A stretch of DNA of 64,000 nt from Chryseobacterium gleum (GTDB taxonomy: Bacteria > Bacteroidota > Bacteroidia > Flavobacteriales_D > Sanyastnellaceae): contig CAMCVP010000001.1 of the NCBI GenBank assembly GCA_945881835.1, forward strand, positions 372,001 through 436,000. The letters run 5' to 3'. Within the stretch, counting starts at the first letter, position 1; every line of letters begins with the position of its first letter. Below the pieces are notes generated by a model, which was given only the letters and a program-made list of their open reading frames with translations, had not been told where the DNA came from and did not search any database. The position numbers were made by a program, and so were the translations under genes. This document shows positions 42,691 to 46,273 of the stretch, piece after piece.

Positions 42691-43767
42691 ATGCTTCAAA
42701 GTAAACACCTCTTTATATTATTCGCACTTTTTTTCAGTTCAAATTTTTTAAGTGCACAAGCTGAACCGCCGCACGTCATGGCACAGATGGAGCGTCAGTA
42801 CAGACTCGCTCATGCGCATTTCGAAAATCTTGTTTTCGAAGGCGGCGGTATTCGTGGGGTTGCTTATTGCGGTGCACTTATGGAAATGGATTCGCGCGGT
42901 TACTTGAAAGACATTCGTCGCGTTGCCGGCGCATCTTCAGGAGCGATCACCTCATGTCTGCTGGCGGTGGGATATACTCCAACAGAAATTTCAGTGATTA
43001 TTGGTGGAATGAATTTCGGTAAACTAAACGATGGTGGCGGATTGTTTATTGGAGGGATTCACCGATTGCGCAAGCGCATGGGGTACTACCGCGGAGAGCG
43101 TTTTTTGAGATGGATGGAAGAGCTAGTCGCTGCAAAAACAGGAAACAAGGACATCACATTTATGGAGTTGAAGAAACTCGCTGATAAAGATTCGACCTAC
43201 CGCGAATTGGTGGTTACGGCAACGTGCATGAATCATCAAAAGGCAGAGTATTTCGATTATTATCGTTATCCGAATATGCGCATTGTAGACGGCGTTCGTG
43301 CAAGCATGGCGGTTCCGTTGTACTACGAACCTTTCGTAATGAATAACGAAGGACATCGTGTAGATGTTCGTCATTATGCAGACAGCGATCACGTGTGTTT
43401 GGACGGTGGATTTCTTTCCAACTATCCGATCTGGGTGTTCGATCAAGCACCTTATGTGCAAGATCCGATGATTACCCTCGGCTTCCGCATAGACAGTGAA
43501 TATCAGATTACCGTAGATCGTACCAAGACGAAAACAGATCCGTATTATCCTATTCACAGCACGAAGGATTTAGTGGGAAGTGTTTACTATATCATGAAGG
43601 AAAACCTGAATCGGTTTATGCTAACCGAACTCGATTGGGAGCGCACCATCAGCATCAGCGACGCTGGCATTGGCCCGAAGGTGAAGAAGCTTTCACAAGA
43701 ACAAAAGGAGTTATTTCTGAATGAAGGGAAGAGAGGGGTGAGGAGGTATTTTGAGGAAGGATACTGA
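42691..43767 (+). CDS. Secreted patatin-like phospholipase
   Basis: 358 residues with a signal peptide (ILFALFFSSNFLSAQ). Patatin-fold signatures are the oxyanion loop EGGGIRGVAYCG (50-61), the nucleophile Ser82 in GASSG (80-84) and the partner Asp238 in LDGGFLSNYP. These form the Ser-Asp dyad of lipid acyl hydrolases. The enzyme is probably periplasmic or exported, acting on phospholipids. No sorting domain or outer-membrane barrel is fused to it. Its stop codon is separated by one base from the first hairpin of the repeat array. Confidence 0.92.
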   Translation: MLQSKHLFILFALFFSSNFLSAQAEPPHVMAQMERQYRLAHAHFENLVFEGGGIRGVAYCGALMEMDSRGYLKDIRRVAGASSGAITSCLLAVGYTPTEISVIIGGMNFGKLNDGGGLFIGGIHRLRKRMGYYRGERFLRWMEELVAAKTGNKDITFMELKKLADKDSTYRELVVTATCMNHQKAEYFDYYRYPNMRIVDGVRASMAVPLYYEPFVMNNEGHRVDVRHYADSDHVCLDGGFLSNYPIWVFDQAPYVQDPMITLGFRIDSEYQITVDRTKTKTDPYYPIHSTKDLVGSVYYIMKENLNRFMLTELDWERTISISDAGIGPKVKKLSQEQKELFLNEGKRGVRRYFEEGY

Positions 43768-43768
43768 T

Positions 43769-43858
43769 GTGGCGGAGCCACTAATGTTGCGAAGCAACGA
43801 ATGCCGGAGGCGAATGTTCTTCGAACGAATGCCTGCGGCTAATGTGTAAACACGTATG
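43769..43858 (+). repeat. Left array of six short hairpins with a GAAT linker
   Basis: Six consecutive small palindromes are joined by four-base linkers GAAT, TAAT or, once, GTAT. Stems (loops) from left to right are GTGGC(GGA)GCCAC, GTTGC(GAA)GCAAC, GCC(GGA)GGC, GTTC(TTC)GAAC, GCC(TGC)GGC and GTGT(AA)ACAC. Each stem begins with G and ends with C, and stem sequences vary while pairing is kept. The array reads toward the four-helix-bundle gene. The remaining stretch 43859-43989 holds a possible promoter only. Confidence 0.9.
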
Positions 43859-43965
43859 TTATGCTGCGAAAAAATATGCAAAAAGCCTTGAATACATTGC
43901 GTTTCAGCGTTTCGTGAGAATTGTTATGAGAATATGGGTTTCTTTTTTTTCGTGAAGTGACACAA

Positions 43966-43973
43966 CATCTTTG
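43966..43973 (+). promoter_or_regulatory. Possible -7 box of the four-helix-bundle gene
   Basis: CATCTTTG, identical to the dnaX box and one base off TAnnTTTG, ends 16 bases before the ATG at 43990. Confidence 0.35.
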
Positions 43974-43989
43974 TCGAAAAATTACAACT

Positions 43990-44358
43990 ATGATTCCAAT
44001 TCATCAAACAGCAAAGGACTTTGCCGTAACAGCAGTTAAATTAGGCAAGCGATTGCAAACCCAAGAAAGAGAGTTCAACATTTCCAATCAACTTATTCGA
44101 AGTGCCACTTCAATAAGCGCGAATCTTCATGAAGCTCGAAGTGCAGAGTCTTTGAAAGATTATACCCACAAGGTTTTTATTGCATTCAAAGAAGCCAGCG
44201 AAACAAAATACTGGATTAACCTCTTGCATGAAACAGAGTACATTCCTACGGAAGAGTTCAATGAATTAAACAAGCAAATCCGCGCCATTGGTGCAACTCT
44301 CTACGCACTATCAACTGCCATGCGGAAAAAACTACAAAACGAAAAGAATTCAAAGTAA
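43990..44358 (+). CDS. Four-helix-bundle protein of the S23 / 23S-rRNA-IVS family
   Basis: 122 residues from the ATG at 43990; a frame extends to 43957 but the conserved region starts at IPIHQTAKDFAV. The protein is fully helical with QLIRSATSISANLHEARSA, DYTHKVFIAFKEASETKYWI and a basic C-terminal helix, as in the S23 family first seen inside 23S rRNA intervening sequences. The Avd accessory protein of diversity-generating retroelements has the same fold. The function of stand-alone members is unknown; RNA or DNA binding is plausible from the basic surface. It is not in an rRNA gene here but lies between two hairpin arrays. Confidence 0.85.
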   Translation: MIPIHQTAKDFAVTAVKLGKRLQTQEREFNISNQLIRSATSISANLHEARSAESLKDYTHKVFIAFKEASETKYWINLLHETEYIPTEEFNELNKQIRAIGATLYALSTAMRKKLQNEKNSK

Positions 44359-44369
44359 TAAACTCTAGC

Positions 44370-44504
44370 GTCGAAGACATTCGCCAACGGCATTCGCAGC
44401 TCTGCTGCATTCGTGCTTTAGCACATTCGCCTTCGGCATTCGTTGCTCTGCCACATTCGTGCTTGCACATTCGTCCTTCGGACATTCGTGGCTATGCCAC
44501 ATTC
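44370..44504 (-). repeat. Right array of nine short hairpins with an ATTC (GAAT complement) linker
   Basis: Nine hairpins are joined by ATTC. Left to right, stems (loops) are GTC(GAA)GAC, GCC(AAC)GGC, GCAGC(TCT)GCTGC, GTGCT(TT)AGCAC, GCC(TTC)GGC, GTTGC(TCT)GCCAC with one mismatch, GTGC(TT)GCAC, GTCC(TTC)GGAC and GTGGC(TAT)GCCAC. The linker is the complement of that in the left array, so the arrays point at each other. The last hairpin overlaps the stop codon of the AGCS gene. Confidence 0.9.
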
Positions 44505-46273
44505 TTTCTCTCCGTCCAATACTTCTGAAGTTCCCGCTTCACCTCATCCTTCAACACCCACAATCCAATGAGGTTCGGGAAGGCCATGCCTAAGATCATC
44601 ATGTCGGAAAAGTCTACCACTGCGCCGAAGCTGCTAACGGTTCCGAGTACCGTGCAGAATAAGAATAGGAGGTTGAACGATTGCTTGATCCACCACTTTT
44701 CGCCGAACAAGTAAGCCCAACTTTTCATTCCGTAATAAGACCAAGAGATCATGGTTGCGTAGGCGAAGAGTACAATGCAAATCAAAAGGATCCAATCGGT
44801 CCAAGGGAAGACAGAACGAAAAGCCGCTGCTGTTAAAGCGCTTCCATTTAGTCCGTGAGTGTCTGTTGCGAATCCAGTGAACACCAACACCAATGCGGTC
44901 ATGGTGCAAACGACAACGGTGTCGATAAACGGTTCCAACAAGGAAACCATGCCTTCTGTAACAGGTTTGTTTGTTTTCGAAGTAGAGTGTGCAATACTTG
45001 CAGATCCAATTCCAGCTTCATTGCTGAACGCCGCTCTGCGGAAGCCCATCATCATAACGCCAATGAATCCGCCTTTCATTCCATCTGGAGAAAAGGCGCC
45101 GTTAAATATCAACGAAGTAGCTTCGCCAATGTGCGAAATATTCATTCCAATAATCACTAATGCGAATCCGCAGTAGACAACAACCAATGCGGGAATCATC
45201 TTGTCTGTCACACGCGCAATGCTTTTAATTCCACCTACAATGACAAATCCTACAGAGATTGCGAACGCTACACCTATCCAAAGCGCGTATTCTTCAGAAC
45301 CTGGAATGGTGGTTTTCACCATATCAAACGCCTGATTCGCTTGAACCATGTTTCCTCCTCCAAGCGTTCCGCCAACACACATAATGGCGAAAATAACAGC
45401 CAATATTTTTCCGCTTCGCTGCCATCCTTTCTTCGCTAATCCAGCACTCAAATAGTACATTGGTCCGCCGCTGACTTCGCCGGTTGCAGAGATTTTTCTG
45501 TACTTCACACCAAGTGTGCATTCAACGAACTTGGTGGTCATTCCGAACAGACCAGCAACGATAATCCAAAATGTAGCTCCCGGTCCTCCAACCGCAATGG
45601 CCACAGCAACCAACGAAATGTTTCCTAATCCCAATGTTCCACTTAAGGCAGCAGATAAGGCTTGGAAAGGTGTAACTTCCCCTTCATCGGTCTTCTTCGT
45701 GAATTGTCCAAATGTGATTTTCCACGCATGTCCGAATGCGCGGACATTTATAAATCGAAAGTAGAAGGTGAAATAAACCGCACTTCCAATTAACAAAACA
45801 ACGACCAACCAGATTTCCGATTTCACGGGGTTGCCGTTCGGATGCTTTATGAGTTTTCCTTCATTGTCATACAAAAACGGATCGTATAAATTCAATGCCG
45901 CGAAAGGATCATAGAATAGCACCACTCCAAAGGCATCAACAATAGGTACAAAGAACGAATTCATTTTTTCTTCGCTGGAAACAGCTGGAATAGCAAACGT
46001 CTGTTCTTGAACATTGCCATTCGCAAAGGTCACTTGAACAGTATAGTTGATTCCTTCTTTCAGTCCTGAAGCTGCTATAGAATCAACACTCTGAAGGTTC
46101 GACCAATGCGCATTTACAATGCTGTCAGAACTTAGTACAGATGCTTCACCGTCGCCGATGTTGTGCGTATTCGGATTTAGTTGTATTTGGAAATTTTGTG
46201 CGTGAAGTGTCGCAAACGACAGGACAATTGCTAAAACACCCACTGATTTCAGGAAAGGTTGAATCAATCTCAT
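44492..46273 (-). CDS. AGCS-family sodium:amino acid symporter with a secreted N-terminal domain
   Basis: 593 residues. The symporter core begins near residue 150 (EIWLVVVLLIGSAVYFTFYF) and has the family signature FQALSAALSGTLGLGNISLV, then GATFWIIVAGLFGMTTKFVE and FSNEAGIGSASIAHS. It imports alanine or glycine with Na+. Unusually, the chain starts with a signal peptide (SVGVLAIVLSFATLHAQ) and about 85 residues of beta-rich sequence before the first core helix. The C-terminal residues Asn-Val-Ala and the stop codon are encoded by the outermost hairpin of the repeat array, so the gene's natural end may have been altered. Confidence 0.92.
   Translation of the reverse strand: MRLIQPFLKSVGVLAIVLSFATLHAQNFQIQLNPNTHNIGDGEASVLSSDSIVNAHWSNLQSVDSIAASGLKEGINYTVQVTFANGNVQEQTFAIPAVSSEEKMNSFFVPIVDAFGVVLFYDPFAALNLYDPFLYDNEGKLIKHPNGNPVKSEIWLVVVLLIGSAVYFTFYFRFINVRAFGHAWKITFGQFTKKTDEGEVTPFQALSAALSGTLGLGNISLVAVAIAVGGPGATFWIIVAGLFGMTTKFVECTLGVKYRKISATGEVSGGPMYYLSAGLAKKGWQRSGKILAVIFAIMCVGGTLGGGNMVQANQAFDMVKTTIPGSEEYALWIGVAFAISVGFVIVGGIKSIARVTDKMIPALVVVYCGFALVIIGMNISHIGEATSLIFNGAFSPDGMKGGFIGVMMMGFRRAAFSNEAGIGSASIAHSTSKTNKPVTEGMVSLLEPFIDTVVVCTMTALVLVFTGFATDTHGLNGSALTAAAFRSVFPWTDWILLICIVLFAYATMISWSYYGMKSWAYLFGEKWWIKQSFNLLFLFCTVLGTVSSFGAVVDFSDMMILGMAFPNLIGLWVLKDEVKRELQKYWTERKNVA

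Follow-up and report, generated by a model that had tools for sequence, protein, structure and literature searches.

An S23-family gene enclosed by inverted arrays of mini-hairpins, a probable non-ribosomal element of the intervening-sequence type

The S23 gene and its two arrays

Within the window, which is the whole stretch of 64,000 nucleotides that was analyzed, a gene for a patatin-like phospholipase (42691..43767, + strand; ORF and PF01734) is followed by an array of six mini-hairpins (43769..43857, +), a leader (43858..43989, +), an S23 gene (43990..44358, +), an inverted array of nine mini-hairpins (44370..44504, −), and a gene for a sodium:alanine symporter (44492..46273, −; ORF and PF01235). 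The patatin stop codon occupies 43765-43767 and the left array begins one base later. At the other side, the right array's first hairpin contains the symporter stop codon (44492-44494). These contacts with stop codons are absent from the preliminary description of this DNA. The leader, which runs from the left array to the S23 start codon, is kept along with the gene in relatives (BLAST of locus L001 against L146, 95% over 1265-1987).

The left array, recognized by sequence reading, by an array scan, and by its complementarity to the right array, reads GTGGCGGAGCCAC TAAT GTTGCGAAGCAAC GAAT GCCGGAGGC GAAT GTTCTTCGAAC GAAT GCCTGCGGC TAAT GTGTAAACAC GTAT, with GAAT linkers three times, TAAT twice, and GTAT once at the end. 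In the right array, identified from its sequence and array scans, ATTC linkers join the nine hairpins; this is GAAT on the − strand, and the two arrays are thus inverted relative to one another. Units at the locus measure 13-17 nt, and their stems of 3-5 bp follow a G...C form. The only imperfect hairpin of the right array is GTTGCTCTGCCAC, which carries one mismatched pair. Re-reading the sequence reproduced exactly the hairpin counts and linkers given previously, as well as the opposed orientation and the pairing retained in all units but one.

In five shuffled windows, chains of at least three perfect hairpins sharing a linker of 3-5 nt were absent, and one chain with a 2-nt linker was found. 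Because shuffled windows are almost devoid of such chains, those at the locus exceed chance expectation. Taken as wholes, the left and right arrays are complementary to each other (42 nt, 86%), and the minimum-energy structure predicted for RNA spanning 43768-44504 (z=-5.5) pairs one array with the other. No Rfam family, including any rRNA family, matched positions 43600-44700 up to E=1, and the reading of the locus as a known structured RNA was rejected on this ground. The arrays also lack the identical 20-50 nt repeats and unrelated spacers of CRISPR, having instead 4-nt linkers and palindromic spacers, in agreement with the initial impression that they are of another kind.

The S23 family is widespread but unexplained, and is familiar from insertions by which ribosomal RNA is fragmented. 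The ORF in the window starts with ATG at 43990, its stop codon ends at 44358, and its 122-amino-acid product is a four-helix bundle that belongs to the S23 / 23S_rRNA_IVP family by two profiles that score above their curated cut-offs: PF05635 (E=4e-24; 85.2 bits against 33.8) and TIGR02436 (E=4e-26; 91.4 bits against 24). The closest solved structure is PDB 2RLD (E=3.5e-33); another solved S23 protein, PDB 2GSC, is XCC0516 of a Xanthomonas. S23 genes of the genus are under strong purifying selection, with dN/dS of 0-0.13 where dS is measurable, and close orthologues of the window's gene differ by 0-3 nonsynonymous versus 13-23 synonymous changes.

Hairpin pairing and the dispersal of array dialects

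Pairing was assessed in 93 GAAT arrays with 334 units, taken from the genome of the window (G000) and from two of its relatives in the genus (G001 and G004, among relatives G001-G006 plus G007 and G008). Pairing is perfect in 318 units. Overall, 98.7% of stem positions are paired, compared to 77.9% (maximum 79.8%) after shuffling 3′ arms among units of equal length. This pairing extends across 26 stems and 128 distinct hairpins, which supports the earlier proposal that structure rather than sequence is kept. The constancy of pairing supports either selection that acts on the shape of the hairpins or mutation of a kind that restores palindromes, and the data would fit both. The many different stems with perfect pairing constitute a natural experiment on hairpin-shape selection or template-switch mutation.

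One possibility is that the process is purely mutational, wherein replication slippage expands the repeats and template switching perfects the hairpins and generates inverted copies, with no element or protein involved. Template switching alone would yield both compensatory stems and inverted arrays. However, such a process leaves unexplained why S23 genes sit between inverted copies in several phyla, and why array type agrees with S23 lineage (see below). We therefore consider a purely mutational origin improbable.

The distribution of arrays in the window's genome was established by pattern searches. A pattern of three CGAATG linkers and 6-14 nt spacers matched this genome 44 times, at 28 places, and did not match a reversed control. 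The same pattern gave 46 matches in G001, 61 in G003, 64 in G004, 73 in G006, 5 in G002, 12 in G005, and 0 in both G007 and G008, and it is nearly absent outside the genus. A generic scan for hairpin chains with stems of at least 4 bp missed the arrays, which a fixed-linker scan detected. When any fixed linker was permitted, further dialects emerged: ATGA, whose hairpins have the form C..G; TCAA, whose hairpins have the form T..A; GAGG; AGA; and GTTGG. The ATGA pattern has 153 matches in the window's genome compared to 3 in the control. In 304 kb that had not been chosen for arrays, 13 arrays of at least three units were found, two of which correspond to the right array of this locus.

Head-to-head ATGA arrays repeatedly lie exactly 13 bases apart around a constant center. 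Such centers occur in the window's genome (C2:58558-58572, C12:53106-53120, and C12:60706-60720), in G001 (C16:7613-7627, C58:55918-55932, and C67:36073-36087), and in G004 (C62:4298-4312). They resemble fold-back products, a point in favor of the mutational explanation.

A tetranucleotide beside a hairpin is the design of REP sequences. It might thus be supposed that a Y1 (HUH) transposase recognizes hairpins beside the GAAT tetranucleotide and spreads them, as in REP/RAYT systems. The layout fits, and the window's genome has two Y1_Tnp genes. However, the array-rich genomes G002, G003 (96% complete), and G005 have no Y1_Tnp gene, the hairpin ends of the Y1 genes themselves differ from the arrays, and the arrays comprise 26 stems with a GAAT linker rather than one conserved palindrome with a GTAG/CGTC tag. 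We rejected this mechanism as the main cause on account of the missing Y1_Tnp genes and regard it as highly improbable, in accord with the preliminary judgment that the arrays are not REP. The two Y1 genes (IS200-like/RAYT-like; L090:1414-1893 and L091:1420-1860) have hairpin ends of their own, and one of them has inserted immediately downstream from a GAAT array.

Most GAAT arrays have no adjoining S23 gene and are located at the 3′ ends of genes. The nearest upstream gene is in the sense orientation for 67 of the 93 arrays, and in 55 of these 67 cases the array overlaps that gene's stop codon or begins no more than 34 nt from it. Thus, the arrays are not private to the S23 gene, a point on which the preliminary interpretation is not supported as it stood: most of the 28 places with the GAAT dialect in the window's genome have no S23 neighbor. 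The concern that arrays might be scattered at random places without any link to S23 is thus half borne out: this majority is unlinked, but its sites are not random, and S23 genes are themselves strongly linked to arrays.

These sites bring in another explanation, in which the arrays are host-owned 3′-end elements of the flanking genes, such as mRNA stabilizers or sites for RNA binding or processing, and S23 is a passenger between convergent genes. Because the arrays are found mostly at gene 3′ ends without S23, they could be host 3′-UTR elements that include S23 among them by chance. Likewise, both arrays at the locus begin at stop codons.

Complementary flanks and rearrangements at S23 loci

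To score flanks independently of dialect, each gene's 450 upstream bases were aligned to its 450 downstream bases in reverse complement. Twelve 20-kb genome stretches supplied 172 background ORFs, whose scores have a 99th percentile of 28. The S23 locus in the window scores 58. Among 28 S23 loci of the genus, which are not independent but represent about nine S23 lineages, each with at least one positive locus, 26 score 44-150, whereas one of the 172 background ORFs reaches 30. The two low-scoring loci are L004, which is cut by a contig end, and L150 (score 28). Random genes, many of which lie beside gene ends, therefore almost never have complementary flanks, and this argues against the arrays being host-owned 3′-end elements.

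By a strict scan, hairpin arrays flank three of the five S23 genes in the window's genome: the one described here (GAAT) and those at L004 and L005 (both ATGA). Reading the flanks of all 28 loci revealed that the remaining S23 loci of the genus also bear inverted repeat arrays, in other dialects and in some cases without hairpins. An early reading that arrays are unlinked to S23, made when one of five S23 genes was found near GAAT arrays, was dropped once these other dialects emerged.

The only background positive is an ORF6N-domain gene (L154:5407-6615, equivalent to G000:C1:545407-546615), which lies between TCAA/TTGA hairpin arrays and scores 71. Therefore, genes other than S23 can occupy such sites. 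A small gene (MNTNDVRWKQRFENFKNARKQF...) at L058:3378-3788 and L127:1070-1498 also has array-complementary flanks, with scores of 41 and 90; by eye, it looks like a nucleotidyltransferase substrate-binding protein.

A narrow alignment search for S23 in the genome contigs gave matches confined to members of the genus. Scores of at least 40 were also obtained for 10 of 22 S23 loci from other families of the order (shuffle maximum 30). A phylum-wide sample gave 10 of 29 loci at or above this score, compared to 1 of 36 neighboring ORFs, and clear arms are absent at most S23 genes (17/29) in this sample. On plasmids, 15 of 17 S23 genes score at least 40 versus 0 of 28 neighbors; the 17 genes derive from Nostoc, Dolichospermum, Anabaena, Euhalothece, Planktothrix, Aulosira, Bernardetia, Treponema, Monoglobus, and Chlorohelix. 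The association of S23 genes with inverted arrays that was suspected from the single locus is thus real, and it is far above background in the genus and on plasmids.

In S23 arms from beyond the genus, the usual form is a plain array of heptamers, with a period of 7/14, for example GCAAGTC / GACTTGC and AATTCGT / ACGAATT. Hairpins therefore do not define the element, and the hairpin units that had appeared to be its hallmark are a local feature of the genus. That arms at S23 loci in other families and phyla are unrelated heptamers is a further argument against host-owned 3′-end elements.

Among the plasmid copies, S23 genes with inverted heptamer-like arms are located between cas2 and cas1 in Anabaena cylindrica pANACY.01 (L211) and in Nostoc sp. 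TCL26-01 pTCL26-01_B (L221). Other copies are neighbors of restriction or DISARM genes (L217), and one, which is without arms, lies between hsdS and hsdR (L219).

Array dialect follows S23 lineage within the genus. GAAT arrays flank the window's S23 gene (lineage A) in G000, G001, G003, G004, and G006. In G002 and G005, its orthologue is 66% identical and again lies between patatin and symporter, and the flanking arrays are of the GAGG dialect. Genome-wide GAGG counts are 18, 10, 14, 10, and 11 in the first five genomes and 63 and 41 in G002 and G005, such that the abundances of GAAT and GAGG split in the same way as the flanks of the lineage A orthologues. Lineage B is found with TCAA and lineage C with ATGA, and other lineages have AGA, GTTTG, or purine-rich repeats. 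A match between dialect and lineage would be expected if protein and repeats co-evolve. However, shared descent of two clades would yield the same result, and part of the agreement is due to such descent. The difference in dialect between orthologous loci speaks against host-owned 3′-end elements.

Gain or loss is evident for another S23 copy. The genes on either side are the same (88% and 87%) at loci L005 (G000) and L107 (G004). The former contains lineage C S23 with its ATGA arrays, and the latter has neither, merely a shorter spacer with other arrays. The check for empty sites recommended in the preliminary description thus produced an occupied and unoccupied pair, and the joint gain or loss of this gene and its own arrays again disagrees with host ownership. 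Given these four lines of evidence, we view the arrays as unlikely to be host 3′-end elements with S23 as a passenger. No empty site was found for the window's own locus, for which G007 and G008 lack an intact patatin gene. Two nearly identical copies of lineage C S23 with ATGA arrays are present in the window's genome, at different loci with different upstream flanks. Lineage A S23 is at one locus throughout the genus, with no sign of recent transposition, and comparison of the loci defined no target-site duplication or exact element end.

Rearrangements are also apparent. In G003, the S23 gene of the DUF177-accB locus has the opposite orientation, with respect to both flanks, to that in G006 and G008, and lineage D S23 in G005 is inverted as compared with G004 and G006. 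At the window's locus in G001 and G004, dapA now adjoins the arrays. Between patatin and S23, G003 (L133), G004 (L102), and G006 (L142) have an additional gene that is itself bordered on each side by GAAT arrays and is absent in four genomes; it is possibly a cassette gained or lost through array recombination. Inverted arrays are good substrates for such inversions and rearrangements.

Beside the same sugar-reductase-like gene, the neighboring intergenic site holds different S23 lineages in G000 (L057:2004-2666) and G004 (L135:1483-1908), as if this site were reused.

A proposed S23 element and its relation to known systems

We consider it probable that the locus is a non-ribosomal S23 element of the intervening-sequence (IVS) type, consisting of an S23 gene bounded by inverted short-repeat arrays, and that it acts as proposed below. 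Its two arms are complementary to each other, similar arms accompany S23 genes in many lineages, S23 and its arms are present or absent together at one site, S23 is flipped at two loci, and gene order has changed at the edges of arrays. In RNA, the arms would form a long stem, a row of hairpins, or both, which RNase III might cut. As for IVSs in rRNA, such cutting would make insertion at a gene's 3′ end or between genes nearly harmless. We speculate that S23, a basic four-helix bundle related to Avd, recognizes the structured arms that carry its own dialect and helps them to spread and to become homogeneous; this action on its own dialect is the weakest part of the S23-element reading. Arrays at gene ends that lack S23 would be remnants or non-autonomous copies. 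Within the genus, the unit of the arrays has become a mini-hairpin with a fixed linker, such that structure is kept instead of sequence.

More tentatively, S23 genes of Bacteroidota, Cyanobacteria, Chloroflexota, and Spirochaetota might constitute one large class of mobile elements whose ends are inverted short-repeat arrays. Each S23 would propagate the dialect that it recognizes (in this genus by hairpin shape rather than sequence), and rRNA IVSs and the dispersed heptamer arrays of cyanobacteria and Bacteroidota would be members or remnants. S23 genes bounded by inverted arrays in many bacteria point to a little-recognized kind of selfish element. Perhaps three old puzzles are one: the function of S23, the origin of IVS placement in rRNA, and the spread of heptamer arrays (STRR, TAACTGA, GGGAATC) in cyanobacteria, Bacteroidota, and xanthomonads. 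The link between S23 and lineage-specific inverted arrays makes all three testable by binding, deletion, and RNA experiments.

The arrays resemble REP/BIME and REPIN sequences with RAYT in that many extragenic palindromes occur with a tetranucleotide beside the hairpin, but RAYT is not co-distributed and the palindrome sequence is not conserved. Likewise, the S23 protein shares a related four-helix bundle fold with Avd of diversity-generating retroelements, a similarity mentioned previously (PMC10053308), but its score with the Avd profile NF033474 (E=9e-5, 22.8 bits) is far under the equivalog cut-off of 80 bits.

Heptamer arrays are also intergenic short direct repeats, and in Xanthomonas they often form inverted pairs. 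TAACTGA arrays occur in Beggiatoaceae, cyanobacteria, and Bacteroidota (PMC4679880) and GGGAATC arrays in Xanthomonas (PMC4692102); neither has a known means of spread, and neither report mentions S23. Outside the genus, S23 arms are heptamers like STRR-type arrays, whereas the 13-17 nt hairpin units at this locus do not have a 7-nt direct repeat period. In the openly accessible journal articles that were searched, a link between S23 and these arrays was found nowhere except in the heptamers of the Coxiella IVS.

The nearest parallel in layout is the S23-bearing 23S rRNA IVS of Coxiella and Leptospira, in which an S23 ORF likewise lies between complementary termini. The IVS of Coxiella burnetii has an S23 ORF and 28-bp complementary ends, is excised by RNase III, and carries two or three tandem GACAGAT heptamers upstream of the ORF (PMC4990558). 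Unlike these IVSs, the locus described here is located between two convergent protein genes rather than inside a 23S rRNA gene, its arms are built of mini-hairpins with 4-nt linkers, and its dialect is dispersed over the genome.
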